From Deltaproteobacteria bacterium (GTDB lineage: Bacteria; Bdellovibrionota; Bdellovibrionia; Bdellovibrionales; Bdellovibrionaceae), in assembly GCA_017302835.1 (NCBI GenBank), contig JAFLCC010000001.1, forward strand, positions 310,001 to 374,000: DNA of 64,000 nt, read 5' to 3'. A program made the position numbers and the translations under genes. Of this stretch, positions 812 to 31,891 are shown piece after piece; within the stretch, counting starts at the first letter, position 1; each line of letters opens with the position of its first letter. Below the pieces are notes generated by a model that was given only the letters and a program-made list of their open reading frames with translations, was not told where the DNA came from and did no database searches.

Positions 812-2233
812 CTAAGGTTGAGTGTTCATATCTTCAAGGTCTACTTCGACTTCAAGTTCTTTCACAATTGGTTTCCAAATATAAACCTCTTTCACTTGCC
901 CATGGTAACCCTTGTTCATGTAATCTATTAGCGTTGGATCTCCAGAAATAATAAAATTTCCATTTTTAAGTACGGTCAAATATCGATTCATCCCAATCAT
1001 TTTATCTTGCAGTTTATGCGGAGTGAAGTCTCCAGTTCCATCTTTGGAGAGGATGTAAACTTTGGCCTGATTGTTATTTACAACTAAGTTTCCATTCGGA
1101 AGTTCACGCGCATTCCATACAAAGCCCCCTAGAAATATATTTTGTTGGTTGAGGTATTGATTTGTTTTTGGATCGAGTTCCCAAATACGAACATGACCAT
1201 CATAGCCGGCGGTAGCTATGCGTCCATCTTTTAGAAGCTCAACGCTAGAAATCTTGCCGCTTCCAGGCGGGTTCTGAAATTTGTATTGGTACACATGAGT
1301 TTGCCGTTGCTGATCCCAGCGATAGTATTCGAGCCGGCCAGAGTAGTCCCCCGTCACGAAATCGTTGTTAGGAAAAACCGCAATGTCCATGATGCCAGCC
1401 GTACCTGGTTGAATGGCACCTTTGTGCTGTGTTGAGATGTAGGTGTATGTTCCTCCCTGGTTAGGTACCGACGATTCTGTAAATATAAGTAATTCCCCGT
1501 CATTGTCACCCAATATCGCGCGACCATTTGGTAACGCTTTTAGTGGCCCAACAAGAGTTCCTGGGAATACCACGGCTGTAGGCCGCACACTCGGATTCAT
1601 TGGGATGAACATCATGGCATTTTTATTGTTGGTGGTTGTGTAGTATACAATTGTCCCACTGGTTAGTTCAGCGAAAGGCCCCTGAACAGAACCAGGAGTT
1701 TTTGATAAGTGACTGTAGTATTCGAATGAACCATTGGGTTTAGGTTTCAAGAATTCACTTTTACCATATCGAGTTTCTGCTAACAACCGTCCACTTTGCA
1801 ATTCAAAAATTTGATCGGGATTTTGTTCAAAGAGATCTCCGATGTCGTGTACTGGTTCGTATAGCTCGGATTCGACTACTATTTTTTCAATGCGCTTTAG
1901 GGGAATTCTAGGTTTCGGTTTTTCTTCTTTCTCAATTTTAGGTTCTGGGCGATTTTGAATTTCTTTGATTTTTGCTTTTAAAATTCCATCAAATCCAGGG
2001 ACTAGCTTTTTCAAGCTGCGCATTTCCACTTGAATGGATGGGTTCATAAAAATAGCAGTGATCGGCGTGCTGGTCGATTTCGCCATTTCGGCGATGCGTT
2101 CTGCTAAATTTTGGATCGCAGCTTCATTGGTTTGAGTCGCACCGAAGCGGTAGTAAGAGCGACAGCTATTCGCATGCACGACGTTTCCATTCCACAATAA
2201 GGTTGCGACAAGGATTATCGCTAGAGGCTTCAT
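812..2233 (-). CDS. Exported beta-propeller (WD40-like) protein, last gene of the vWA operon
   Basis: 473 residues. Residues 1-21 form a signal peptide ending VHA, followed by NSCRSYY: Cys24-x-x-Tyr-Tyr, the motif shared by all five proteins of this locus. Residues about 25-110 are helical, then a Lys/Pro/Glu-rich linker, then a propeller-like region from about 150 to the end. The propeller region repeats phrases such as ELLKDGRIATAGYDGHVRIW and LPNGNLVVNNN, typical of WD40 or related blades. No catalytic residues are visible; a scaffold or binding role is inferred. Its start overlaps the upstream gene by 4 bases (2230-2233), indicating translational coupling. The C terminus is acidic. Confidence 0.8.
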   Translation of the reverse strand: MKPLAIILVATLLWNGNVVHANSCRSYYRFGATQTNEAAIQNLAERIAEMAKSTSTPITAIFMNPSIQVEMRSLKKLVPGFDGILKAKIKEIQNRPEPKIEKEEKPKPRIPLKRIEKIVVESELYEPVHDIGDLFEQNPDQIFELQSGRLLAETRYGKSEFLKPKPNGSFEYYSHLSKTPGSVQGPFAELTSGTIVYYTTTNNKNAMMFIPMNPSVRPTAVVFPGTLVGPLKALPNGRAILGDNDGELLIFTESSVPNQGGTYTYISTQHKGAIQPGTAGIMDIAVFPNNDFVTGDYSGRLEYYRWDQQRQTHVYQYKFQNPPGSGKISSVELLKDGRIATAGYDGHVRIWELDPKTNQYLNQQNIFLGGFVWNARELPNGNLVVNNNQAKVYILSKDGTGDFTPHKLQDKMIGMNRYLTVLKNGNFIISGDPTLIDYMNKGYHGQVKEVYIWKPIVKELEVEVDLEDMNTQP

Positions 2234-3777
2234 GGGTTCTCCTCGTCTAAAATTCCTACTTCTAATTTGCTTTTAGACCACTCAGTCGAAATAAAATTAC
2301 TACTAGCGTATTGGGCGTTTACAATCACACGCGTGCCGTTTGAAAAACCATAGTATTTTGCAAAATGTTGGGCTCTAGTCGATGATGTGCTTTTATACTG
2401 GAGCTTGCCGTTGAAATCTTTATCTAAAAAGATAACACCTTGCTCGAAAGTGGAAATAGCGAAACCGGCATCTGGCGTAGGTGTTAGTTTAGATGCGGAC
2501 CTAATTGTCTGCGCATGATGGCAAGAATCTATTTCAATGAATTCAAATAAATCAGGGGGTGTGAGGGGAGCTGGCGGTTTCTTTTTTAGGAACGAAAAAA
2601 GTCCACCACCATGGGACTCCTGAGGCTTCGGAGGAATTGGTTTGATTACAAATGTTTTTACTTCGCCTGTTCGATAAAGTGCGTAGATCATTCCGTGTCC
2701 ATCTCTGTGCACATCGACTATTTCAGTGGTCGCAGAATCAGTAATATGACCGGCCTGCTCATACTGGTGAGTCTTTGTGTCGAAATGCCAATATTGAATA
2801 ACGTTATCGTTATACATATTCAGCTTTTGTTTTTCATAGTTAGTTATTGTATGATGAGCGATAAAATCGCCATTGGGAATCGGATGAATGGAATTCAGAT
2901 TTTCACGAGCATATGGGCTCCATTCACGTCGTTGAAAATTTTCAGTAATGGAATCTGTCAATGGTGAATAAATTCGAATTTTTCCATGCACCATCGATAC
3001 AGCTACTAAACCATTAGCAAGGGCAGTTAGCTTAGATATATGGCTTTGACCCCTCATCGATTCTACCAAAGTATCGATATAAACTTTAGACTTAACAAAT
3101 CGATTCCCACTTTGTACTACAATATACTGCTCATTTCCAGTTTCTACTTGCAGTATCACTCCGCCGTTGAATCCTGGTCTGACATCGGCAATTTCTTTTT
3201 CTTGAAATGGAAAGGGATTATATGCAGGGATTAGTCGACCATTGATATCGAAAGTAAAGAAAGCGGCCACGCGGTCTGGCATCCTAGAAAATACAAGGGA
3301 TGGATTTACTTCAACAAAATCCGGATTCAAACGAGTCAGGTTCGAAATGTCATTTTCGACCTCAGCTCCCTCAACGAGGACTTTTCTTGGTTTAGGTTTG
3401 ATTGGCGGATTAATTTGATCTTTCTTGACTTGTGTTTCATGGGGTGCTGGTCTATCAGCGGTTTTATTTATCGTGACAACAAAAGGTTTCTTGGCTTGTT
3501 CTATTCGCGTATTGATTAAGGATTTTACTTGGGCCGTGCTGATACCTTGCGAGTTCGCAGAAGATATAAGTTTTATGATTTTTACGTCACTCAAAATCTG
3601 CGATGTCGTTAATTTAACATTTGGATCAATTATTTCGATCTGCGCCGCAATGGCCTTTAGCATGGATTTGCCGCCACCATACACCTGGATGCATTCATTG
3701 GCATTGGCCATTAACGTCGATGAAGAAAGGTAAATGGAGCCAGCGGTTAAGAAAATTATAAATATTCGATTTTTCAT
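2230..3777 (-). CDS. Exported beta-propeller-like protein, third gene of the vWA operon
   Basis: 515 residues with a signal peptide (residues 1-26, ending LMANA) and then NECIQVY, so Cys29-x-x-Val-Tyr33 matches the locus motif. A helical N-terminal domain of about 80 residues is followed by a Pro/Lys linker (PPIKPKPRK) and a beta-rich region with propeller-like repeats (ANGLVAVSMVHGKIRIYSP, PNGDFIAHHTI). It is weaker in canonical WD dipeptides than its neighbours, so the propeller assignment is by analogy. It overlaps genes on both sides by 4 bases. It is probably a diverged paralogue of the genes at 812 and 7001. Confidence 0.78.
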   Translation of the reverse strand: MKNRIFIIFLTAGSIYLSSSTLMANANECIQVYGGGKSMLKAIAAQIEIIDPNVKLTTSQILSDVKIIKLISSANSQGISTAQVKSLINTRIEQAKKPFVVTINKTADRPAPHETQVKKDQINPPIKPKPRKVLVEGAEVENDISNLTRLNPDFVEVNPSLVFSRMPDRVAAFFTFDINGRLIPAYNPFPFQEKEIADVRPGFNGGVILQVETGNEQYIVVQSGNRFVKSKVYIDTLVESMRGQSHISKLTALANGLVAVSMVHGKIRIYSPLTDSITENFQRREWSPYARENLNSIHPIPNGDFIAHHTITNYEKQKLNMYNDNVIQYWHFDTKTHQYEQAGHITDSATTEIVDVHRDGHGMIYALYRTGEVKTFVIKPIPPKPQESHGGGLFSFLKKKPPAPLTPPDLFEFIEIDSCHHAQTIRSASKLTPTPDAGFAISTFEQGVIFLDKDFNGKLQYKSTSSTRAQHFAKYYGFSNGTRVIVNAQYASSNFISTEWSKSKLEVGILDEENP

Positions 3778-6700
3778 GGCTTCACAATCCTTATTATTTT
3801 AGTCAGCTGACTGAATTCGACGACAGAAAGTTCACTGAGGTCATTGCCGCCAAGCTGTAGAAAGTTTTTTAGTAATTCAGTTACAAAACCTATTTTTATA
3901 TCATCACCAATTGTTGAGTTTAATAGTACAGACTCAACTTCTAGTAACTCACTGATCAACATTGGATTGTTGGGGCTATCTTGTTTACGCTTCATCAAAG
4001 AAACTAAATGTGCTAAATCATTACCTGGAACGGACTCTTCCTTATCAGGAATACGCAGATTGTTGATTCGACTAATTATGCCGTGACCGAGGCTGCCTAT
4101 ACTTGGGTCAAAAACAAAAGCCTCAGGATCGAAATCGACTTTCTTTGCATCTTTCGCAAAGTTCTCCATCATCTCTGCCGTGATTTCCGTAACCATTGAT
4201 TTTGAGTTTTTGGTGTTAGTATATTGAACAATTTCCTCTAGCGTTGAATTTCGTCCGCCAAGGGCTACCAAATTAAACATAGTTTTTACATAGCTAGGAA
4301 GAGCATTGATTTCGTTGATAGTTTCTTGTTTATTTACGGAAGCGCCCCCATCGGTGAGCAAAATCATATTGGCGCGATTTAGTTTTAAGCGTTGGCTAAA
4401 GTCAGTGCTGGATGGATTGGATGCTTTGATGCTATCTTTGATCATTTTAAAATGGGTATCGAAACAAGCCTGAATATTTGTGCCGTCATTAGCTACTGTA
4501 GGGCGGGATAAATAATTTAGGACTTCTCGTTTTGCTTCCGCGGCTGTGGTTACTTGAATACCAGCATGGACCTCATTACCAAACGGAAATATAATAACTT
4601 TGTGGGTGTGATTTCCAAAGGGATCTTTTTCAGACAATGCTTTGTCGACAATAGCAGCAATGGCACTGGCTTGAACTTCTGCCGGTCGACCGTGCATAGA
4701 TCCGCTGATGTCGAAAAAGATGTTGGTATGTTTGCGTTCAATTGTACTTTGTGAGCCCGCCGTCGGATATTGCTGACGATATCCCATCATATATTGCTGA
4801 TCTTTCAAAAGATTATCGAGCAACATCAAAACCGGGTCCGGATTATACTGAATATCCAGGATCCAGCGTTCAAATTTCGCGACATCTTCAGGACGCGCTA
4901 AAACGATATCTTCATTACGATTCTTCAGTGTGTACGCACGCAAAATAGATTTAGCATAACGTAGTTTATGCTCGCGTTCGGCATTTAATAAGAAATTGAA
5001 GTGTTTGCCCACCAGGGAAGCTTGCATAATATTATTTAAACCACCATTTCTTAACGCCGTTACGAAGGCTTTTTGATCGACAGATCCTGCTTCTTCAACT
5101 TTAGGAAATTGATCGCGGATAATTTCTTTGATGATTTCGCCAGGCAGACCCTTCAGTACGGACTGAGTCAGCGCTTGTTCTTTTGCGCTTGGGTGATTTA
5201 GTTTTGAAAAATCATGCATAATAGATACGAGTTCGTCGTGAAGGCGCTGCTCATTAACGGTTAATTCGCGCAAATTACCGATTTCAGAAATAAAATCTTT
5301 TACCGCCTTTAAATAGCGATAGGAAATTGTAGGATCTGAGTGAATTTGAGCTTTTGCTTCTGTCAGTAACTCAACTAAAGTTCCTTCTTTCATTCCGTAC
5401 ATTCGCGACGTTAATGTTTGTAAGTCTGATTTGGCTTTCTTGTTTTGCATCGTCAGGGCGTGGTGATTGATAAGGTAGCCGTCAAGAAGAGCCTCTAGCC
5501 CGTTCCATTTAATAAGTCGAACTACGGGCCCTAAAGTGTTTAGCAACATTTGACGCACAAGCAGTCCCAATGGTGTTTTATATCCTGGAGGGACTTTACT
5601 ATATTTTGGTTTCGGCGGTGGTTTAGCCAGGTCTTTCGGTTTTTCTTTTTCTGGCATTTCTAGAAGATTTTGTGCTGCTTTCTTTTGGTCTTTTGGTGGC
5701 AGCGGCGGTTTCTGTTCTTTAGTTTGTTGTGTCTGCTGTTCTGGCGTTTCTTCGACTTCATTTTCTTCTTCAAGTTCTTCTTTGTTGTTTTTCTCTAGCT
5801 CAGGATTTTTTCGTGTGGGGGTAAAATCGTAAGAAACCCATTCGTCACCGATAAATACTTCGACCCAAGCATGGCGAGGTAGTGAGTAGTCTGCAACGTT
5901 ATAATTCTGGCCATCGATATCTTTTTTGCCGGAGGTTCTTCGACCATCTACTATGCGCGTGGGAATTCCAAAAAAGTCTCGTAGCAACGTCGCACCGATT
6001 TGGGCGCCACCATCACAGTTGAACTCTTTCATAACTGCCATCTCTAGGATCGTGTCTGCTGGTTTTTGGCCGTTCTCTGAAAAGTATTTATAGGGGCCGT
6101 CGGTTGTGATCCAGCTTGATAATATTTCAGATATTGCAGCAATGTCGCCGCCACTATTGTCTTGCGCTTTTTTGACACCATCTAGAATGTGCGCGGGCCA
6201 TTGATTTTGGCGTATTTTACTTTTCTTAGTTAGAATTGTTTTTTGAATCTCAGATAGGTGTTTACCCTTGCTTGTTTCAAGTTCTAAGATCATTTTTTCT
6301 GGCAGTGGTTTGCCGTTTAGGCTTTCGACCAGATACTCGCCCATCGCCGGCTGAAAGACGCGAAAATCCGTATAGGTTTTTACAACGGGCATGCTCCCAT
6401 AAGCGACAGGAACGACCGCCGTACTAGCGGCCAGGGGGTTCACCAAGACACTTTGATGGCGCTTTCCTGGTAGGGGGGGGCTGGATGTCGTGTTAACTTC
6501 AGTCGTTCTTGCGGAAGGATCTTTTCTCCAACCATCATCATCGAAGGTATCAAAGATTTCTTCACGAACACGTTTTTCAGGAACTGGGGCCGTTGTTCCG
6601 AATAAATAACTGGAATGTGGTTTTTTCATTGCTTCGCTGATATCTTTGTTTTTTGCTTTGTACTCTTCATTACGCTTTTCCTTAAGGCCGTCTTGTTTTT

Positions 6701-7004
6701 CTTCAGGTGGCGGTGGTGATTTTTTCACAGAGCTCTGCTCTTGCAAGCTTTGCTTGCTTTCACCTTGTGGACGCTGAACTGTATTTTGCGGGCGATGGGG
6801 CGTTGCTTGCACAGGCTTTTGCTTTTTTCGAAATAAACCTTTGATGTAGTTTACGACTTTTTCGACTGCACTCATTGGTGGTGGTGGAGGAGGTGGTGGC
6901 GAGGCTTGGTAAAACAGTGGGCAAGACTCATCGGCCATAGCCGGCGTCAGGCTAGCTGTGCCGAAAATGAAAACAGATATCAATAGAAGTAGATTTTTAA
7001 TCAT
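3774..7004 (-). CDS. Exported transglutaminase-like / von Willebrand A fusion protein
   Basis: About 1076 residues. I prefer the ATG at 7004 (ATGA overlap with the upstream stop, as at the other two junctions) over the in-frame ATG at 7019. A signal peptide ending AMA is followed by DESCPLFY (locus motif), eight prolines and a long charged low-complexity linker. A transglutaminase-like core follows, with Cys330 (NCDGGA), His378 (RHAWVEV) and Asp393 (YDFTPT), the expected triad. After another Pro/Glu/Gln linker and a helical region comes a vWA domain with MIDAS residues Asp765-x-Ser-x-Ser (DISGSM), a Thr (NDGTNIQ) and an Asp (LLTDGGAS). MoxR ATPases normally act on vWA partners, and such an ATPase lies divergently upstream. 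The substrate of the transglutaminase-like part is unknown; it could be a protease, amidase or transglutaminase. Confidence 0.85.
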   Translation of the reverse strand: MIKNLLLLISVFIFGTASLTPAMADESCPLFYQASPPPPPPPPMSAVEKVVNYIKGLFRKKQKPVQATPHRPQNTVQRPQGESKQSLQEQSSVKKSPPPPEEKQDGLKEKRNEEYKAKNKDISEAMKKPHSSYLFGTTAPVPEKRVREEIFDTFDDDGWRKDPSARTTEVNTTSSPPLPGKRHQSVLVNPLAASTAVVPVAYGSMPVVKTYTDFRVFQPAMGEYLVESLNGKPLPEKMILELETSKGKHLSEIQKTILTKKSKIRQNQWPAHILDGVKKAQDNSGGDIAAISEILSSWITTDGPYKYFSENGQKPADTILEMAVMKEFNCDGGAQIGATLLRDFFGIPTRIVDGRRTSGKKDIDGQNYNVADYSLPRHAWVEVFIGDEWVSYDFTPTRKNPELEKNNKEELEEENEVEETPEQQTQQTKEQKPPLPPKDQKKAAQNLLEMPEKEKPKDLAKPPPKPKYSKVPPGYKTPLGLLVRQMLLNTLGPVVRLIKWNGLEALLDGYLINHHALTMQNKKAKSDLQTLTSRMYGMKEGTLVELLTEAKAQIHSDPTISYRYLKAVKDFISEIGNLRELTVNEQRLHDELVSIMHDFSKLNHPSAKEQALTQSVLKGLPGEIIKEIIRDQFPKVEEAGSVDQKAFVTALRNGGLNNIMQASLVGKHFNFLLNAEREHKLRYAKSILRAYTLKNRNEDIVLARPEDVAKFERWILDIQYNPDPVLMLLDNLLKDQQYMMGYRQQYPTAGSQSTIERKHTNIFFDISGSMHGRPAEVQASAIAAIVDKALSEKDPFGNHTHKVIIFPFGNEVHAGIQVTTAAEAKREVLNYLSRPTVANDGTNIQACFDTHFKMIKDSIKASNPSSTDFSQRLKLNRANMILLTDGGASVNKQETINEINALPSYVKTMFNLVALGGRNSTLEEIVQYTNTKNSKSMVTEITAEMMENFAKDAKKVDFDPEAFVFDPSIGSLGHGIISRINNLRIPDKEESVPGNDLAHLVSLMKRKQDSPNNPMLISELLEVESVLLNSTIGDDIKIGFVTELLKNFLQLGGNDLSELSVVEFSQLTKIIRIVKP

Positions 7005-8473
7005 GGTTTTCGTGTCCATAACCAGTAGTTTTTAATTCCGGCGGTGTAGAAGCCGCCGTGTTGCAAAGGTAAAATAAAAGCACCTGGTCCTTCGCCCCGT
7101 GCTACTGTCGGTATTCTTGTTGTTGCAGAGATTTTTCCGGAACTGTCAATTCGATATAGAGGAAGTGTTTCGTCGCCACGCATTGTGTTTACCAATATCT
7201 GTCCGTCAGCTAAAACTTCCAGACTTTTAATCCAAACATTACCTGCATTTTTAACATTTTCAGTAGCGATAAGTGATAAATTTCCGTTATCCCATTTCCA
7301 GGTTTTAACTAATCCTCGATATTCCGCGGTGACCAAAATCCCACCAGGCAGCATTTTCATACCGTTAATTCTGGGCACGAATGATCCAGTCATATAGCTC
7401 ATTCGGTCAGGGTAAGTATACGTCCCAGTATCAAAAACTCGTCCAGGTTGGTAGGTACCATCAGATTGGCGTACCCAATGTTGAATCACTGAAAGCTGTA
7501 TGTATGGATCTTGTGCTCCTTCCAGCAGCCGTGGACCTAATTCAAATGCGACTAGCAAGTCTCTATCAGGAAGAACAAGGAGTTCACTGACAGAAGATGT
7601 TATGTTTGGAGCTGGAGTACTTGGCGCATAATCATATTCTTTACTGATTGCGCCTGTAGTTCGGTCTAAAATAATAAATGGGCCTCCACTTTTATCTATC
7701 ACAACAAAATGTTGAGTGGATATGGGAACAACTTCCGTTTGGTTACGATATTTGCGCAAATCGATATGGGTAAACGTATTGGGATCTAAATTATTTGGAT
7801 TTAAAATTGTAAGCTGTTTATGTCCGCTGGAATCCAAAGTCATCACGGCCACCAAATCAGAATTCACTAGTTTTGGTTTTGAGACTGAGATAAATGTGGC
7901 GGATATTTTATCGATCTCGTTATATCGGATATCTCCCATGCCATCAAGAATGGGAGCCAGTCGTTTAATTTCTTGAGGTATATTGGGATTTCCTTCCGGC
8001 AGTGACAAAATATCGCCATCGGCAAGCTCCACCATATAATATCCAAGACTTTCGGAAAGTTCTTTTTTAGAAAACTCTCCCCTACGAAGTGGAATTTTTT
8101 GAGCGATATTGGATCGAGCTTCAAACTGATTTCCATAATCAACGGGGGGTTTGTTCTGCAAACTTAGGCGCTGAAAAGTTTCTTCCATACTTTCAGTACC
8201 AGGAATCGATTTCGCATTGCCATTAAGAAGATCTTTCAGCTTCTTCATAAAATTGGGATCCGCTCTCTTTCCAGCTATAATCATATTCGCAAAAAGCGGA
8301 GATTGGATCAGGGCAATCGCAGCGGCACGTGATCCGTTGGCTCCAGCTAAAATTGCTGCTGCGACACCGTGAACTGTAGAGAACTTACTGGTGTAGATTG
8401 CACCACAGGTATCGTTCGCTAAAACGGAAAGGTTTAGGCTCAAACTTAAAATTAAAATGTGTTTTAGATTCAT
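7001..8473 (-). CDS. Exported beta-propeller-like protein, first gene of the vWA operon
   Basis: 490 residues from the ATG at 8473, which follows GAGG and starts a clean signal peptide (ending SVLA). An upstream in-frame start at 8521 would add a non-hydrophobic leader and is rejected. The mature end is NDTCGAIY (Cys23-x-x-Ile-Tyr27). An N-terminal helical domain of about 80 residues is followed by a beta-rich region with repeats of the type LPDRDLLVAFELG, LPGGILVTAEYRGLVKTWKW and LADGQILVNTMRG, consistent with a six- or seven-bladed propeller. It leads the operon; its stop overlaps the start of the transglutaminase/vWA gene by 4 bases. Confidence 0.8.
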   Translation of the reverse strand: MNLKHILILSLSLNLSVLANDTCGAIYTSKFSTVHGVAAAILAGANGSRAAAIALIQSPLFANMIIAGKRADPNFMKKLKDLLNGNAKSIPGTESMEETFQRLSLQNKPPVDYGNQFEARSNIAQKIPLRRGEFSKKELSESLGYYMVELADGDILSLPEGNPNIPQEIKRLAPILDGMGDIRYNEIDKISATFISVSKPKLVNSDLVAVMTLDSSGHKQLTILNPNNLDPNTFTHIDLRKYRNQTEVVPISTQHFVVIDKSGGPFIILDRTTGAISKEYDYAPSTPAPNITSSVSELLVLPDRDLLVAFELGPRLLEGAQDPYIQLSVIQHWVRQSDGTYQPGRVFDTGTYTYPDRMSYMTGSFVPRINGMKMLPGGILVTAEYRGLVKTWKWDNGNLSLIATENVKNAGNVWIKSLEVLADGQILVNTMRGDETLPLYRIDSSGKISATTRIPTVARGEGPGAFILPLQHGGFYTAGIKNYWLWTRKP

Positions 8474-8521
8474 AAATGCGCCTCGTTCATAGCGGGAGAA
8501 GCATGACTTGTACCAATCCAA

Positions 8522-8645
8522 ATCTTATATATGCATAGATAAGAACTGTTTTGAAGGTATTGTATGTATCAAAAATATACAGTGTATTAACTTGTATCAA
8601 AATAAAACGCATGTGAAGAGCTGTATTGAAGTATATCTGAGTTGA
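8522..8645. promoter_or_regulatory. Divergent control region with duplicated motifs
   Basis: This AT-rich gap separates the exported-protein operon (leftward) from the AAA+ gene (rightward). Two imperfect 16-mers of the form AAGARCTGTWTTGAAG lie at 8541-8556 and 8616-8631. Between them TGTATCAAAA occurs twice (8565-8574 and 8593-8602), 28 bases apart. The arrangement suggests paired binding sites for one regulator controlling both directions. No specific promoter is assigned with confidence. Confidence 0.4.
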
Positions 8646-8699
8646 GTGAGCATAGAACTTGCTTTAATCGTCTTCCGTGGTCTTTTTACCGGAGGATAT

Positions 8700-11600
8700 G
8701 TGCGTCTTTTAAATATATTATTTTCGACGGTTCTTGCAATTCCGCTGGTTCAAGGTGGCGAGTATAAGTGCTATAAAGTCTATTCCAGAAAAAAAGTTAC
8801 TATTATTAAGACAAAAATGCGCGTTGAAAAAAATGTGTTAGCAACGAAAACAAACGCTGCGTGGGAGATTTCACGTGCGGGAATCGCTGAACTAAACACA
8901 AAACTTTATTCTATGGAGAACCTACTTTATTATCTAGGTACTGGTTTGATCGCCAAAGAAAATATTTTGTCTGATGGTGGTGGCGGTGGCGGTAAGACAT
9001 TCGCCATGCGAGAATTTTTTGAATCACAACTACGAGCTGTGAAAGGAGAAACTCAAGATGCCAGAAATCGTTGGAACGTTGATTTGGTTAAATTCATCGA
9101 TGAAATGAATAGGATTATTGACGAAGAGAAAAGATACATAAAAGATGCCGACAAACGATTGTTTACGATCCAATTCCATCAGTTATTAAGTGAAACGTCT
9201 TTGCTGGGTGGACCCAATCCAATCAAGTTTGTAAAAGAAGGTATTTACGAAGTCGATTACAGTCGCGCCTTGATTGCCGAGAAAAATATGTTTGCGATCC
9301 TCGATGAAATCGAAAAAGCCCCACCCAGTTTGCAAATGACATTACTTTCAATCCTGAATGAGCGTCAGGCATTAGCTGGAAACAAAGTTGTTCAAACAAT
9401 GTTAGAATCCATTGCCGGAACAACTAATAAAACATTAGGTCAAATGGTTTCACAAGCGGATCCTCATGAAATCGGTGGACGAATGGCCTACCTAGATCGC
9501 TTTGCGCTAAAGTTCCATTTGGTATACACGGGACATAGTGCAACTGATAATTATCTATTCGTCGAAAACTTAGAAGCCAATAGCAGCGAAAAACGATACA
9601 CGATTATCGATTTGCGCGGCATTCGCCCGCTGGCCGACAATGTTGAAATTTCGAAAGAATTAATTTCTTCAGCGGTCGATGTTGTGACCGAAATGGATCT
9701 TGCGTACAGTCAGCATTTAAAAGAGTTGCAGTCGGCGATAGAAGATCCAGCCAAACAACCTTCTTTTTATCCTCCCTACTCGGGATCGAATCGTGCCAAT
9801 TCTAAAGTTATTAAGATGTGGCAAGCCGCATTTATTATGCGCCAGTTAATTAACGGTGTTGCTTATGAATCGGTAAATTTAAAAATGTCAGCTAAAGATT
9901 TAGTAGATTTAGCTCCGGTTGTTTTACAAGGCGGACCCGATACTTTTCAGTCGGCCCATAGTATTAAGTTAGGATTTTTACAATATAAATATATTGGAGA
10001 ATCTGAAGAGGGCTTACCGATACCAAAAAGTGAAAAGATCGTTGTAGCCAAATCTAACGTTGATGTAACTACGGCGGCCTTCAGGAATAAAGACATCTAT
10101 GCAGAGAATTCAATTTCGACGGGTTACTATGACCCTTCGACAGAAATGTTTACTTATAAATCATTAAATCACGGGCAGATTCGAAAGGTTCATTTCGATG
10201 TCAAAAAAGGAAAACTAAATATACCAAATGAAGTCATCGCAGATGAGCTGGGTGTAGGGCTAGATCTAGATAATGTTTTTTTTGACGGAAATGAATCCCT
10301 TGCAAGACGATTAGCTGATCTAAATAGTCGACTTTCAAAGATTCATGTGAACGCGGTTCGCGGGGGCAAAGATAAGAATGAAACTGGATTTGTTCTTTCA
10401 GGAATCATCGAGGAATACTTAAAGCCAAATAGTCAGGCCGCGATTATAAAAGAAGCCAAAGAACAATTGGCAGAAATTAAAAAGTTCCATGAACGATTTC
10501 GCTCGATTATTAATCCTAAAATTAAAGAGCTAAGTACGGTTTCAATGTCTGAAGTTGATGTTTCTGTAGATATTAAGCAGGATAAAGAATTCTTTGATAG
10601 AGCCACCAAGTTATCGAGCGAATTAGAAGATGCTTTAGATCAGAAAAATTCAGATAAGGTTTTGGATATTGCGATTCAATCAGTTCGATTGGGTTTTGAA
10701 GAGATGACATTCTGGTTTAAAAACTCGGGCAGCACTGTCGCAGGGATGTTCAAAGGGATTTCCTCACGAAGAAACGTTATGCTTTTTGGTCCTCATGGAT
10801 CAGCAAAAACAATGATGTCGCGAATGATATTAGAACGCGAACTCGAAGGCATTTCCGAGATGCAGATTGCAAAAGCCAATGCACTACTGGCTCATGTGTT
10901 ACCTCATGGAGTTAAAGGCAAGGGTTCGGTATGGATTAAACAATTCCATCCCATGTCGACCGAAGGTGATATCGTAGGTCGTCTTGATTTGAAGGCCATG
11001 GAAGAAGGCCGTGGATATACATATAATCGAACGGGCAGCTTGGCCGCGAAAGACGTTTTTTTTGCCTTATTGGATGAATTTGAAAAAGCCCCCCCAGGAG
11101 TAAAAACGGCATTGTTGTCCTTGATGAATGAGCGCGAAGTTTTAGGTGGAGAGGAAAAAGAGGTATCAAATATTATTTCGATGGTGATCACGACGAATTC
11201 GACCCCGAGCGAATTCTTGATTAGCCAGGGTGATTTTTCGACGGGAGCACCGATCTTTGACCGTATTCAACAGAAAGCGTATGTTTTCAACAAAATGGAC
11301 AAAGCGGATTTGAATTCATTTCTATCCCGATTGTATGCGGGTATCATGCCTCGCTTACACAGTCCTTTGATGTTGTCGCAGATTGGACTGTTGGAGAAAT
11401 ATTTCCGCATCGGTGATGCCGATAAAATGCTTCTTCATGAAATCAATGTCGAGTTTTTGAAGATCGTAAAAGATCGTTCAGAGGCAGAACGTGAACTCCA
11501 TAACGGCCAGCGCGACCTGTACCCCACTTATTTTATGAATACGCATGGGGAAAGTCGTCGTACCTTAGGATCCACATTTTTGAAAGAATTGGGAATTACG

Positions 11601-11996
11601 GTGCAAATGAATCGAGTACTCAAGGGCGAGTCGACTCAAAGTTTTAAAGAACAATACGTGTTTGATCTTAAAGACATCGAATCATTTGCAGAAATGTATA
11701 TGACAGCAAACTTCGCATTCGCAGTTAAAGCGCGCTACAATTCAGACGGTGTCCTTTATTTCGTGGTCGAGAAAAAAAGCACTTCTGGGATCGAAGATCG
11801 CATCAGCAACCGCGAAAAAGAAACTCTCTCTCACATGGAATGGGAAGCTACTCAAATGGCAAATATCATCAATGTCAAACTCAAAGCCTTGATGGCCAAC
11901 AAAGAACGCATAGAAATCATGAAACAATTCCCAAAACGCTACCGAACCCTATTCCAAACCGAAGACCAAAGAAAAGCCTGGCTGGACAAACACTAG
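8700..11996 (+). CDS. Tandem MoxR/RavA-like AAA+ ATPase with signal-like N terminus
   Basis: About 1098 residues from the GTG at 8700, which sits four bases after GGAGG. A GTG at 8646 is in frame but lacks a ribosome site. The chosen start gives MRLLNILFSTVLAIPLVQGG, a signal-peptide or anchor-like segment, then EYKCYKVY (Cys24-x-x-Val-Tyr28) as in the four divergent genes. Two AAA modules follow. The first has Walker A GGGGGGKT (Lys99) and Walker B FAILDEIEKAPP near residue 200. The second has Walker A GPHGSAKT near 700 and Walker B FFALLDEFEKAPP near 787. LNERQ and MNERE after each Walker B are typical of MoxR proteins. The family remodels vWA partners; the likely partner is the transglutaminase/vWA protein. 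Whether the ATPase faces the periplasm or the cytoplasm is unresolved, because many Lys/Arg follow the hydrophobic segment and favour a cytoplasmic side. Confidence 0.85.
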   Translation: MRLLNILFSTVLAIPLVQGGEYKCYKVYSRKKVTIIKTKMRVEKNVLATKTNAAWEISRAGIAELNTKLYSMENLLYYLGTGLIAKENILSDGGGGGGKTFAMREFFESQLRAVKGETQDARNRWNVDLVKFIDEMNRIIDEEKRYIKDADKRLFTIQFHQLLSETSLLGGPNPIKFVKEGIYEVDYSRALIAEKNMFAILDEIEKAPPSLQMTLLSILNERQALAGNKVVQTMLESIAGTTNKTLGQMVSQADPHEIGGRMAYLDRFALKFHLVYTGHSATDNYLFVENLEANSSEKRYTIIDLRGIRPLADNVEISKELISSAVDVVTEMDLAYSQHLKELQSAIEDPAKQPSFYPPYSGSNRANSKVIKMWQAAFIMRQLINGVAYESVNLKMSAKDLVDLAPVVLQGGPDTFQSAHSIKLGFLQYKYIGESEEGLPIPKSEKIVVAKSNVDVTTAAFRNKDIYAENSISTGYYDPSTEMFTYKSLNHGQIRKVHFDVKKGKLNIPNEVIADELGVGLDLDNVFFDGNESLARRLADLNSRLSKIHVNAVRGGKDKNETGFVLSGIIEEYLKPNSQAAIIKEAKEQLAEIKKFHERFRSIINPKIKELSTVSMSEVDVSVDIKQDKEFFDRATKLSSELEDALDQKNSDKVLDIAIQSVRLGFEEMTFWFKNSGSTVAGMFKGISSRRNVMLFGPHGSAKTMMSRMILERELEGISEMQIAKANALLAHVLPHGVKGKGSVWIKQFHPMSTEGDIVGRLDLKAMEEGRGYTYNRTGSLAAKDVFFALLDEFEKAPPGVKTALLSLMNEREVLGGEEKEVSNIISMVITTNSTPSEFLISQGDFSTGAPIFDRIQQKAYVFNKMDKADLNSFLSRLYAGIMPRLHSPLMLSQIGLLEKYFRIGDADKMLLHEINVEFLKIVKDRSEAERELHNGQRDLYPTYFMNTHGESRRTLGSTFLKELGITVQMNRVLKGESTQSFKEQYVFDLKDIESFAEMYMTANFAFAVKARYNSDGVLYFVVEKKSTSGIEDRISNREKETLSHMEWEATQMANIINVKLKALMANKERIEIMKQFPKRYRTLFQTEDQRKAWLDKH

Positions 11997-25508: not shown

Positions 25509-26302
25509 TTCCTAATAAGATAAAAACTGGACTTAGAGTTATTATAAGGATTTTTTATTTCCTCAGTATTGTTACCGTCTACTTATCAAGCGCTTATATA
25601 ATCCATTATACGACGAAGGATCCCAAGTTGAGAAAAAAGAAATTTTCTCAAAACGCAGGAATATACACAACCTTGGTTTGTAAACTTTTTAATATCAAAA
25701 TTGAAGTTATTCAACCTTTGTCATTCCATGATGCTGGCTTGATTGTTGGTAATCACATGGGCTTTATTGATATTTTAGTCATGCATTCTTTGACGAAGGC
25801 GCTATTTGTAACTTCCTATGAAATGAGAGAAACTCCGGTATTGGGTTTAATTACAGAGATGTCAGGTTGCTTGTTTGTTGAAAGAAGAAATAAATCAAAC
25901 ATTTTAAGTGAATTAAAAAATATCATTGATGCTCTGAATGATGATTTCAATGTGACACTTTATCCAGAAGCGACGTCTCATAATGGCGAAGAAATTTTAC
26001 CATTTAAGCGAACCCTAATGACATCAGCTGCGGCTGCAGGAAAACCCATATTGCCCTATTGTTTTAATTTTAAATCAATTAATGGAGAGCCATTTAGTTT
26101 AAAATACCGTGACCATGTTTGCTGGTATGGAGATATGGGATTTTTTTCATCTTTTTTGAAATCAATTAGTTTAGAAGAAATTGTAACCGAGGTCACTTTT
26201 CTAGAGCCTTATTATCCAAAAATGGAACAAGAACGAGCCGAAGTCGCCAATGAAGTTCGCAGAAGAATCGTTAAGCATTTTAGACCAGCTACTGCGCTCT
26301 GA
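25505..26302 (+). CDS. PlsC-type 1-acylglycerol-3-phosphate acyltransferase family protein
   Basis: 265 residues. A membrane helix near residues 10-32 is followed by the acyltransferase motif I NHMGFIDI (H-x4-D) and motif III YPEATSHNGEE, where the common PEGT is PEAT. The family acylates lysophosphatidic acid or other lysolipids at the inner membrane. Which acceptor is used cannot be read from sequence. It overlaps proC by 4 bases and converges with the cNMP-binding gene, their 3' ends overlapping by 14 bases. Confidence 0.85.
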   Translation: MIPNKIKTGLRVIIRIFYFLSIVTVYLSSAYIIHYTTKDPKLRKKKFSQNAGIYTTLVCKLFNIKIEVIQPLSFHDAGLIVGNHMGFIDILVMHSLTKALFVTSYEMRETPVLGLITEMSGCLFVERRNKSNILSELKNIIDALNDDFNVTLYPEATSHNGEEILPFKRTLMTSAAAAGKPILPYCFNFKSINGEPFSLKYRDHVCWYGDMGFFSSFLKSISLEEIVTEVTFLEPYYPKMEQERAEVANEVRRRIVKHFRPATAL

Positions 26303-26789
26303 TTTCATCCATGAGTGCCTTGTGTAAAAGCATTAAGTCGTTGCTGGTTTGAGCAAGTCTTTTAATTAATGATTGCGCAATTTTTTTAAATAGAGGCAAA
26401 CCAATATGAGGGTTTATTATACAAAGAGCATCAAAGTTTTCTTTGTTCAAGACAAGACAATCTGAATTCATTTCACAAAGGATAGAAGCACTCCTCACTT
26501 CATTTTCTATGAGACCGCCTTCGCCAAATGAAGGGTAAGAACTGGAATCTAAATAAGCTACATTAAAATCTTCACCATCAATCGTCGTTTTATGGACACT
26601 AAGCTTGCCACTAAGCAAAACAAAGAATTCACTTCCGGGACTTCCTTGTTTGGTGATGGCCTCTCCTTTAAGAAAGGTTTTTTTTTCCATAATTAAAGAA
26701 ACTTTTTCAATTGCTCCTTCAATGGTCACGATATCACTAAAAAAAGAAACTTTCTTTAGAATTTCTGAATAATCATTTTTCGAGGACAT
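26289..26789 (-). CDS. Stand-alone cyclic nucleotide-binding protein
   Basis: 166 residues from the ATG at 26789, which sits five bases after GAGG; a GTG six bases upstream lies inside that ribosome site. One cNMP-binding (CRP-type) domain: FLKGEAITKQGSPGSEFFVLLSGKL, then the phosphate-binding-cassette region FGEGGLIENEVRSAS. There is no DNA-binding domain and no enzyme. The C-terminal helices are reminiscent of channel C-helices. It overlaps the potassium channel gene by 17 bases, so the two products are made together and probably act together. Confidence 0.85.
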   Translation of the reverse strand: MSSKNDYSEILKKVSFFSDIVTIEGAIEKVSLIMEKKTFLKGEAITKQGSPGSEFFVLLSGKLSVHKTTIDGEDFNVAYLDSSSYPSFGEGGLIENEVRSASILCEMNSDCLVLNKENFDALCIINPHIGLPLFKKIAQSLIKRLAQTSNDLMLLHKALMDEIRAQ

Positions 26790-27963
26790 AATCACCTCTT
26801 TTTTTGATCACAATAGCCATGGAATCTTCACCAATAACATAATTTGGATCAGGATTAAATAATGGGAAATTAAAACGAATATTCTTAACACTTTGTAAGT
26901 TTTTAACTAACTCTTGTACATTGGGAGTAAACTGAGCTTTCTTTAAGGCATTTTCTTTTGCTTTATGGCTGTTTCCGGAGTTTTCCAGAATTCCAAGTAA
27001 ATTCATTTTTGGGTTTAGAGCTTCAAATTTGACTCGAAAATCGCTGTAATTTAATTTTACCATCTCTGCGGGAATGATTTCAGTTGAAAGCATTGAGTTT
27101 GAGTGGGGATCTAACAAGTCATGAAAAATATTAGTGACCCCCAGTCCGGTAGAAGCCATGGCAAGAAGCAGCCTTGAATAATCTCGGCTATAAATAATTT
27201 CATGTACTTGAGCTAATTTAAGATATTGATCCATTTGACTATCCAGGATCTCTGCCACCACAGGGATTCCCTTGGCAATATTATTGAGTGTCATCGCTGT
27301 CATTATGGTTCTGGCATCAGCTTCCGTGCGCGTGGGCACGACTCCTTTAGGCCCGACGGTGGCGTCCGCTAAGATTAAAATTTTAAATGCCTTTTCGGGA
27401 GCACTCCGTTTTAAGACCTCTGCCGAAAAGAAATCACCTCGAATATGCTTAATTTTATTTAATTTTGGATACTCATGTAAATTTTCAATCTCTTCATCAG
27501 ACACATTGTTAACCAAGACGATCTTATCGCTTTTTACCTGTGGATTTGATTCCAAAATATGTAAAAGCAAGGTATGCATTTCATTTTTCCATCCACAGAT
27601 AACAAAATGTTGATTTAAAGCTGCTGTTTCCACAAGGCCCTTCCTATCTCTGATTGCTTTTTCTAAAAATACAGAAGAAATTTTTGCAGTCACCACGCCA
27701 ATACCGGCAACTCCGCCAATCATCATCAATCCAGCCCAAAAACGACCTTCTGGAGTTACGGGGTAACGATCACCATAACCAATAGTTAAAATGGTGACGA
27801 TGCCCCACCAAAGTCCATCCACATAACTGGTGATATTGGAGCCTTGTGTGCCCACTTCGTAATGAGAAACAACGGCAGGAATGATAAGCCACATACATAC
27901 GACAAAGCTAAGGCTCGCGATAAAAGGGCTATTACTTAGAGTGGATATTATTTTTTTGTACAC
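26773..27963 (-). CDS. Two-TM potassium channel with RCK/TrkA-N domain
   Basis: 396 residues, GTG start. Residues about 14-32 and 73-95 are membrane helices flanking a pore helix with the selectivity filter TIGYGD (60-65), a canonical K+ filter. The cytoplasmic part is an RCK-type Rossmann domain (HFVICGWKNEMHTLLLHIL, then KIVLVNN, IRGDFFSAEVLKRS, ILADATV). Such channels are gated by ligands bound to the RCK ring. The downstream, overlapping gene encodes a separate cyclic-nucleotide-binding protein, suggesting a two-polypeptide version of cNMP control. Confidence 0.9.
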   Translation of the reverse strand: MYKKIISTLSNSPFIASLSFVVCMWLIIPAVVSHYEVGTQGSNITSYVDGLWWGIVTILTIGYGDRYPVTPEGRFWAGLMMIGGVAGIGVVTAKISSVFLEKAIRDRKGLVETAALNQHFVICGWKNEMHTLLLHILESNPQVKSDKIVLVNNVSDEEIENLHEYPKLNKIKHIRGDFFSAEVLKRSAPEKAFKILILADATVGPKGVVPTRTEADARTIMTAMTLNNIAKGIPVVAEILDSQMDQYLKLAQVHEIIYSRDYSRLLLAMASTGLGVTNIFHDLLDPHSNSMLSTEIIPAEMVKLNYSDFRVKFEALNPKMNLLGILENSGNSHKAKENALKKAQFTPNVQELVKNLQSVKNIRFNFPLFNPDPNYVIGEDSMAIVIKKRGDYVLEK

Positions 27964-31117: not shown

Positions 31118-31891
31118 CTAGATCTCTTTCTTGAGAATAGTTTTTACCAAGGAATTAGAATTTTTAATTCGACGAGTAAGTGTATGCATTAGGGCTTTGG
31201 CCCAAGCTGGTTTGGAAAACAACACGGTGTCTAGTTTTCCAATGGGAATCTCAATAAGTTCACAATCAGTAACTGCTTGAACTGAAGCCGAACGTTTCTC
31301 GTGATTAAAATAGGCCATTTCACCAACAAACTCACCTGAAGTAATTTGGGCAATGTCTTTTCTTTTAGATTCTGAGTCTAAAAAAACATCCAGAGTACCA
31401 GATTTTAAAATAAAGACACTTTGAGCAATGTCGCCTTCATTGAATAAAATATCTTTAGGCCCTAAAAAATGAAGTTTGTATTCTGAGTTATCTGACTGAG
31501 CCACAAAGTTGAGGGCGCGAGTGAGATTCGAAACAATTTGATCCTCCGAGTTTGGATTTCTCAAAAACTGGACTTGGCCAGTGACAACCTGATCAACAAA
31601 AAGCTCGTTGTCAGGAATTTCGCTTACGATAATAAAAGCAATATTTTTTCCGAACTCTTTAGAAAGCAGAAACTCAACAAGCTCAAACCCAGTTTTCTTT
31701 GGCAAAAGACCTTCAAGAATACAAATATGAGGAGGAAAGCTCTCTATTTTAAATAAGGCTTCTGAGCCGTCTTCAGCAAAGAAGAGAGTTGTCTTTTTTA
31801 TATGGTTTTCAATAGCACTTGCAATTGACGATTTAATAGCCGGGTTTGCAAAGGCTAAAGTAAAGGTGCGTCTTTCATCAAGAGAAATCAT
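31118..31891 (-). CDS. Degenerate receiver domain fused to a cyclic nucleotide-binding domain
   Basis: 257 residues. Residues about 8-125 have the order of a response-regulator receiver, but the phospho-acceptor Asp is Glu60 (ICILEGLLPKKTG), the N-terminal acidic pair is absent, and the KP motif reads RNP. Residues about 140-250 form a cNMP-binding domain: FNEGDIAQSVFILKSGTL, SGEFVGEMAYFNHEKRSASVQA. There is no output DNA-binding helix. It probably works as a phosphorylation-independent protein module that responds to a nucleotide or serves as a scaffold. It stands alone, upstream of nothing obvious. Confidence 0.85.
   Translation of the reverse strand: MISLDERRTFTLAFANPAIKSSIASAIENHIKKTTLFFAEDGSEALFKIESFPPHICILEGLLPKKTGFELVEFLLSKEFGKNIAFIIVSEIPDNELFVDQVVTGQVQFLRNPNSEDQIVSNLTRALNFVAQSDNSEYKLHFLGPKDILFNEGDIAQSVFILKSGTLDVFLDSESKRKDIAQITSGEFVGEMAYFNHEKRSASVQAVTDCELIEIPIGKLDTVLFSKPAWAKALMHTLTRRIKNSNSLVKTILKKEI

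Follow-up and report, generated by a model that had tools for sequence, protein, structure and literature searches.

An MthK-like K+ channel gene and an overlapping gene for a stand-alone cyclic-nucleotide-binding (CNB) domain lie together on the minus strand of the window, the 64,000-nucleotide stretch of DNA that was analysed. We propose, with a probability of roughly 0.6, that they encode a three-polypeptide ligand-gated K+ channel in which an MthK-type gating ring would be regulated in trans by the separate CNB subunit. The linkage of the two genes and an internal start within the channel gene are both well supported. The earlier note on this DNA had pictured a two-subunit channel controlled by cyclic nucleotides; the genetic unit behind that picture is well supported, and the count of two subunits would have to be revised, as a third polypeptide is probably made from the operon.

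The channel gene and its overlapping partner

The channel (Table 1) consists of TM1, a pore helix, the TIGYGD filter, TM2 and an RCK domain with N and C lobes. Pfam matches were obtained for Ion_trans_2 at residues 21-99 (9e-12) and for Slo-like_RCK at residues 116-236 (5e-11), and the same search of the channel found no cNMP domain. In AlphaFold2 models, which are single chains with channel and partner modelled separately, the channel (pLDDT 93.2, 67 sequences) folds into TM1, pore helix, TM2 and a two-lobed RCK domain, with transmembrane helices at residues 13-36 and 71-108. Structurally, this model comes closest to MthK (Z 21.8 and rmsd 5.7 for 306 residues). The isolated RCK domain of MthK can be superposed on residues 118-390 with Z 18.3 and an rmsd of 2.6-2.8 over 208 residues. 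By its predicted structure, the protein is an MthK-like 2TM + RCK K+ channel and groups with the MthK type. A T[VTIL]GYGD filter is present in 119 of 154 aligned channels; in the same alignment D200 is kept in 138 and E238 in 139, residues that may correspond to the Ca2+-binding acidic residues of MthK (D184, E210, E212). By eye, no clear Shine-Dalgarno sequence precedes the channel's own GTG start. The pair is flanked by an FAA-hydrolase-family gene upstream of the channel and, at its other end, by a convergent acyltransferase gene (both by Pfam); promoter and terminator prediction was uninformative, with 11 against 14.6 and 2 against 3.8 expected from shuffles.

Table 1. Features of the channel-partner locus, in window coordinates
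Feature	Position	Strand	Details and basis
K+ channel gene	26773..27963	(-)	396 aa; ORF, Pfam, AlphaFold2
Selectivity filter TIGYGD, residues 60-65	27769..27786	(-)	translation; alignment of 154 channels
Internal Shine-Dalgarno-like AGGAAGGG in channel gene	27638..27645	(-)	same place in relatives
Predicted internally initiated free RCK, 286 aa	26773..27633	(-)	GTG 27633-27631, Val111
Shine-Dalgarno-like AAGAGGTGA before partner gene	26792..26800	(-)	sequence inspection
Channel stop / partner ATG overlap, 17 nt	26773..26789	(-)	ORFs
Stand-alone CNB partner	26289..26789	(-)	166 aa; Pfam, AlphaFold2
Phosphate-binding cassette FGEGGLIENEVRSA, residues 88-101	26487..26528	(-)	alignment of 125 partners
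Long C-terminal helix, residues 127-165, conserved end (NDLMLLHKALMDEIR)	26295..26411	(-)	AlphaFold2; conservation

For the partner, Pfam returned cNMP_binding (PF00027) at residues 37-123 (4.5e-16; 59 bits against a cut-off of 27.5) and no other domain. Its model (pLDDT 95.7) has a CNB fold followed by one 39-residue helix, and the fold matches PKG, MloK1, PKA, AKT1-type and CRP-type domains with Z values of 16-18, at most 18.1. At the end of the C-helix, A158, L159 and E162 are among the most conserved residues of the protein. A CRP/FNR-like transcription regulator was ruled out: the partner ends with the C-helix, and neither Pfam nor the model contains an HTH. The minus-strand coordinates and Pfam thus bear out the earlier description of a channel with TIGYGD filter and RCK domain that lacks a cNMP domain, and of a partner made of a cNMP domain alone, to which one long C-terminal helix must be added. 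The overlap of the two genes also stands; the GTG at 26795 listed as the partner's start is probably not the one used, the likelier start being the ATG at 26789-26787 behind AAGAGGTGAT. The overlap is not conserved, with 4 nt in one relative (L009) and a short gap in another (L008).

Residues G89, E90 and R99 of the cassette are retained in 121 of 125 partners; in one exception Lys replaces Arg (L036), and in the other three the cassette is lost (L213, L215, L216). The cassette of the window's partner, FGEGGLIENEVRSA, resembles FGEMALIDNQNRSA of Bd1971 from Bdellovibrio, a protein that is stimulated by cAMP and cGMP (PMC6717892). Five class III cyclase domains occur in the window's genome. Cyclase domains were found in 28 of the 29 channel genomes of its phylum, the sole miss being a 54% complete genome (G027), and, among 339 genomes of the same phylum without the channel, in 293; their co-occurrence with the channel is permissive, not discriminating. 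The intact cassette, the likeness to Bd1971 and the cyclases in the genome together make cyclic-nucleotide binding by the partner possible.

The three Treponema-like loci without a cassette keep the channel-partner pair, with the motif destroyed (GK...H; FGKAALLGEDFHGSS). Loss of the pocket for want of a cyclase is not supported, as each of four related genomes has 7-9 cyclase domains. Because the cassette is dead despite these cyclases, the partner in these loci cannot be an ordinary cyclic-nucleotide sensor, and such pairs appear as a point against strict cyclic-nucleotide control.

Conservation of the gene pair

Outside one sister clade, channel and partner are rarely separated. A survey of 66 genomes of the family gave some match in 22 and orthologues in 10, one of which (L010) is only a C-terminal remnant; the partner lies 3' of the channel in 10 of 10. 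The spread is patchy, with orthologues in 10/66 genomes of the family, two of six of the genus and none of 24 in genus g4. At L010, the C-terminal end of the channel is all that is left of it; the CNB gene is intact, and a transposase-like ORF, recognized by eye, lies on the other side.

Wider sampling drew on the best 80 of 141 loci from a species-genome scan and on a phylum search (29/368 genomes); several of the relatives' records are metagenome bins, and their taxon titles may err. Removal of duplicates left 90 distinct channels, 81 of them with at least 500 nt downstream. The partner is directly 3' in 71 of these 81, while flanking genes change. The ten exceptions are L075, where the partner is upstream, and nine Desulfobacterales or Nitrospirota loci, which with L259 make up the partnerless sister clade; L233 is also without a partner.

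In a Spirochaetota sample that overlaps with the set of 90 channels, 83 of 296 genomes had a match, and 85 loci with 91 channel frames were studied. A partner is present for 82 of the 91. The partnerless frames are two at contig ends (L235, L253), the upstream halves of two interrupted genes whose other half has the partner (L182, L234), the upstream copy in each of three channel tandems, and L233 and L259. Tandem channel genes before one CNB gene occur at L071, L231 and L232, and at L233 with the CNB gene absent. Among Cloacimonadota, 49 of 124 genomes had a match; the best 15 loci have the partner 3' in 13, upstream in one (L260) and a contig end in one (L261), and of six lower-scoring loci one has a partner (L280) and five do not (L275-L278, and L279 at a contig end). 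A FastTree phylogeny was built from 154 distinct channels, of which 134 are partnered, one has its partner upstream, 13 have none and 6 are undecided; on it, partner presence changes at least three times, the root being weak.

The linkage also holds when read from the partner. Its profile matches 60 of 368 phylum genomes at E 1e-20, with scores in two groups. All 26 matches of at least 144 bits adjoin a channel (coordinates compared by eye), and the next, at 108 and 101 bits, are stand-alone CNB proteins with no channel beside them (L159, L160). The three channel genomes without a partner of at least 144 bits (G341, G333, G270) are explained by contig ends. In a neighbour control of 82 loci, the BLAST cluster of the partner occurs in 62, against 6 for the next commonest non-channel neighbour, and 60 partner-cluster matches are immediately 3' of the channel. 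A chance neighbourhood is rejected by this control and by the counts of 71/81 and 82/91.

Channel and partner distances correlate with r 0.83 over 125 pairs (permuted maximum 0.10), a co-divergence that could come from shared descent alone. Where one genome has paralogous channels, each is accompanied by its own partner (L217/L217b, L203/L244), with similar nearest neighbours for both genes. Taken together, the conservation check proposed in the earlier note comes out in favour of its two-gene unit, which is backed further by the co-divergence, the paralogues with their own partners, the pocket intact in 121 of 125 and the cyclases; the sister clade without the partner speaks against it.

Among the frames examined, no protein of this channel family is fused to a CNB domain, and there is accordingly no Rosetta-stone proof of the pairing. 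Several candidates for such a fusion were set aside. Only five frames match both profiles (L017, L018, L019, L021, L022), and these weak hits resemble CNG-type channels, with the domain fused, from a different family; the CNB match of L080 is in a reading frame other than that of the channel, and the N-terminal domain in the long frames of L275-L278 is not a CNB domain. In these four Cloacimonadota proteins, a periplasmic-binding-type N-terminal domain, which we take to resemble a TAXI-type binding protein, precedes pore and RCK, and three have a SGF[DE] filter-like stretch; they are possibly extracellular-ligand-gated channels. Inter-protein direct-coupling analysis was uninformative (125 pairs, effective number 98.8): three of the top 200 pairs were inter-protein, and the top inter-protein scores fell at ragged ends. 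In the literature searched, mostly without subscription papers, no description of a separate CNB subunit or of the gene pair was found.

A predicted internal start in the channel gene

In the window gene, the linker between TM2 and the RCK domain holds an in-frame start codon behind a Shine-Dalgarno-like stretch (AGGAAGGGCCTTGTG). Internal starts at residues 106-117 were scored by the duplex energy with the anti-Shine-Dalgarno sequence, at -6 kcal/mol or better. Start and site are present in 114 of 125 genes, against a mean of 19.9 and a maximum of 31 in 60 synonymous-shuffle sets, and 88 of the 125 are at or beyond the 5% level of their own shuffles; the window gene, at -6.9 kcal/mol, is matched by 1 of its 60. 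The remaining 11 genes are weaker than -6 kcal/mol, two of them having no site. After thinning to less than 45% identity, 21 of 23 genes still have the start, compared with a mean of 3.9 and a maximum of 8 in shuffles. The linker fraction of 0.91 stands against a gene-window median of 0.03; among the eight best windows listed, the others reach at most 0.12, save 100-111 and 112-123, which overlap or adjoin the linker.

The best start is at residue 110 in 38 genes, at 111 in 37 and at 113 in 33, with other positions in 15 genes. All 22 genes with Val at 111 encode it by GTG (background 28%), and TTG is the codon for 45 of 95 Leu110 residues and for 5 of 11 Leu111 residues (background 15%). The linker start and its Shine-Dalgarno sequence are under codon-level selection, and the operon probably yields a third product, a free RCK domain translated from the internal start.

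The four free RCK domains of MthK are published to come from an internal start at Met107 (PMC9440719), and Roosild et al. point to methionines in the TM2-RCK linker of Kch proteins (PMC2920069); according to other work cited there, E. coli Kch whose putative start at this place had been removed was unchanged in expression and function. Similar linker sites are found in the nine unpartnered sister channels, mostly weaker at -3.3 to -7.4 (duplex energy only), so that the trait may predate the channel-partner pair. The Cloacimonadota locus L075 (549-5059) combines a truncated pore gene with a CNB gene, an RCK-only gene followed by a CNB gene, and a complete channel; the free RCK, elsewhere a predicted product of the internal start, has a gene of its own at this locus.

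Proposed mechanism, alternatives and related systems

In the mechanism that we favour, four full-length channel subunits would assemble into the 2TM pore, each bringing a tethered RCK domain, and initiation at the internal GTG of Val111 would supply four free RCK domains, completing an MthK-type octameric gating ring. The CNB subunit from the small gene, which probably dimerizes by way of its long C-helix, would dock on the RCK ring through its conserved C-terminal end. cAMP (or cGMP) made by class III cyclases would bind the CNB subunit and alter its hold on the ring, so that the pore opens or closes; the ring itself may sense a second ligand. The contact between CNB subunit and channel, the stoichiometry, the CNB dimer, the ligand and the direction of gating are inferred. 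Two kinds of locus suggest docking on the RCK domain rather than on the pore. One is L075, whose RCK-only gene with its CNB gene points to the ring as the docking site. The other is a Treponema-like subclade (L071, L217b, L219-L227, L229, L231-L233) with a changed filter, one residue shorter, in which FAAYFD, FAGYFD, FANYFE and similar stretches replace TVGYGD; here the filter is lost, the RCK is kept and the CNB partner is mostly kept. These channels would be either not K+ selective or non-conducting.

The CNB protein could instead be an assembly or stability factor, a non-gating beta subunit for which binding of a ligand is of secondary importance or has been lost. A CesT/Tir-like chaperone gene occupies the partner's position in the sister clade, together with PspA-like genes, the pairs with a dead pocket persist, and the conserved end of the C-helix would suit such a role; nevertheless, a pure scaffold would not need a cassette, which is intact in nearly all partners, and we consider this reading unlikely. 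In the sister clade, the PspA-like genes stand beside the channel at seven loci (L083, L093, L100-L103, L259), mostly with the CesT/YbjN-like gene between them; these neighbours were Pfam-tested in L083, and CesT also in L100. For L097, L098 and L099, no PspA-like gene was seen within the stretch. Some of the sister-clade loci have a DUF4178-like gene too, the same type of channel being accompanied there by a membrane-stress module.

Another possibility is that the two genes are co-expressed and their products make no contact, the CNB protein acting on some other target in a response to K+ or membrane potential. The genome has 13 further matches to the cNMP domain, and the next-best stand-alone CNB proteins (L159, L160) have no adjoining channel; against this, the pair stays together across phyla while other neighbours change, and paralogous channels each have a partner of their own, which makes the idea quite improbable. 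As regards the linker codons, they could mark something other than a start, such as a translational pause, caused by the Shine-Dalgarno-like sequence, at the junction of membrane and cytosol. Intragenic Shine-Dalgarno-like sequences have been proposed to slow ribosomes, and the site directly follows TM2. We give this explanation little credence, as the start codon itself is favoured at residues 110 and 111, and MthK is published to use such an internal start (PMC9440719).

A gating ring regulated in trans by a CNB subunit would combine traits of known channels. The system resembles MthK in its 2TM pore with one two-lobed RCK domain and in the internal start, here predicted, between TM2 and RCK; it differs in sequence, with 19% identity in the structural alignment, and in its CNB partner, none being mentioned for MthK in the portions of its literature at hand. 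As in MloK1 (MlotiK1) and SthK, a bacterial channel goes with a CNB domain, and the MloK1 CNBD is matched by the partner fold at Z 18.1. MloK1 and SthK are 6TM channels to which a C-linker joins the CNBD within one protein, whereas here the channel is 2TM with an RCK domain and the CNB domain is a separate ORF. A separate soluble regulator on a membrane pore, as presumed here, is found in KtrAB and TrkH-TrkA. In those systems, that subunit is an RCK protein binding ATP/ADP, unlike the CNB domain beside a pore-fused RCK; likewise, the two-subunit TrkA ring TM1088A/TM1088B of Thermotoga maritima is described with RCK-type subunits and no CNB domain (PMC4380455). A further published channel, which lacks a CNB partner and has companions other than those of the present pair, is probably of the kind seen in the sister clade beside CesT/Tir-like and PspA-like genes. 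The system is thus a member of neither KtrAB nor the CNBD channels, with a soluble regulator like that of the former and a presumed ligand like that of the latter.

More tentatively, the pair may represent a widespread, undescribed class of K+ channels that has tethered RCKs, free RCKs and a trans-acting CNB subunit from two genes, that integrates cAMP or cGMP with an RCK ligand, and whose regulatory partner can be exchanged during evolution, one clade having the CNB subunit and its sister clade a membrane-stress module of CesT/Tir and PspA. Were this so, control of K+ channels by cyclic nucleotides would have a second origin, through a separate subunit on an RCK ring and not a fused CNBD, spanning relatives of predatory bacteria, spirochaetes and several other phyla. 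In bacteria that have several cyclases, it would couple cAMP or cGMP to the membrane potential, and it would offer a natural system to which the sensor could be added, or from which it could be left out, in vitro. The debated free RCK would become testable in a family whose internal start shows visible selection.

Elsewhere in the window, another cNMP-domain protein is encoded at 31118-31891 (-), about 3 kb from the pair; its N-terminal receiver domain is weak, at 27.2 bits and below the Pfam cut-off. A run of large ORFs lies at 812-11996. Inspection by eye shows a VWA-like motif, DISGSMHG, in one of them and two MoxR-like AAA motifs in a 1116-aa protein encoded by the run.
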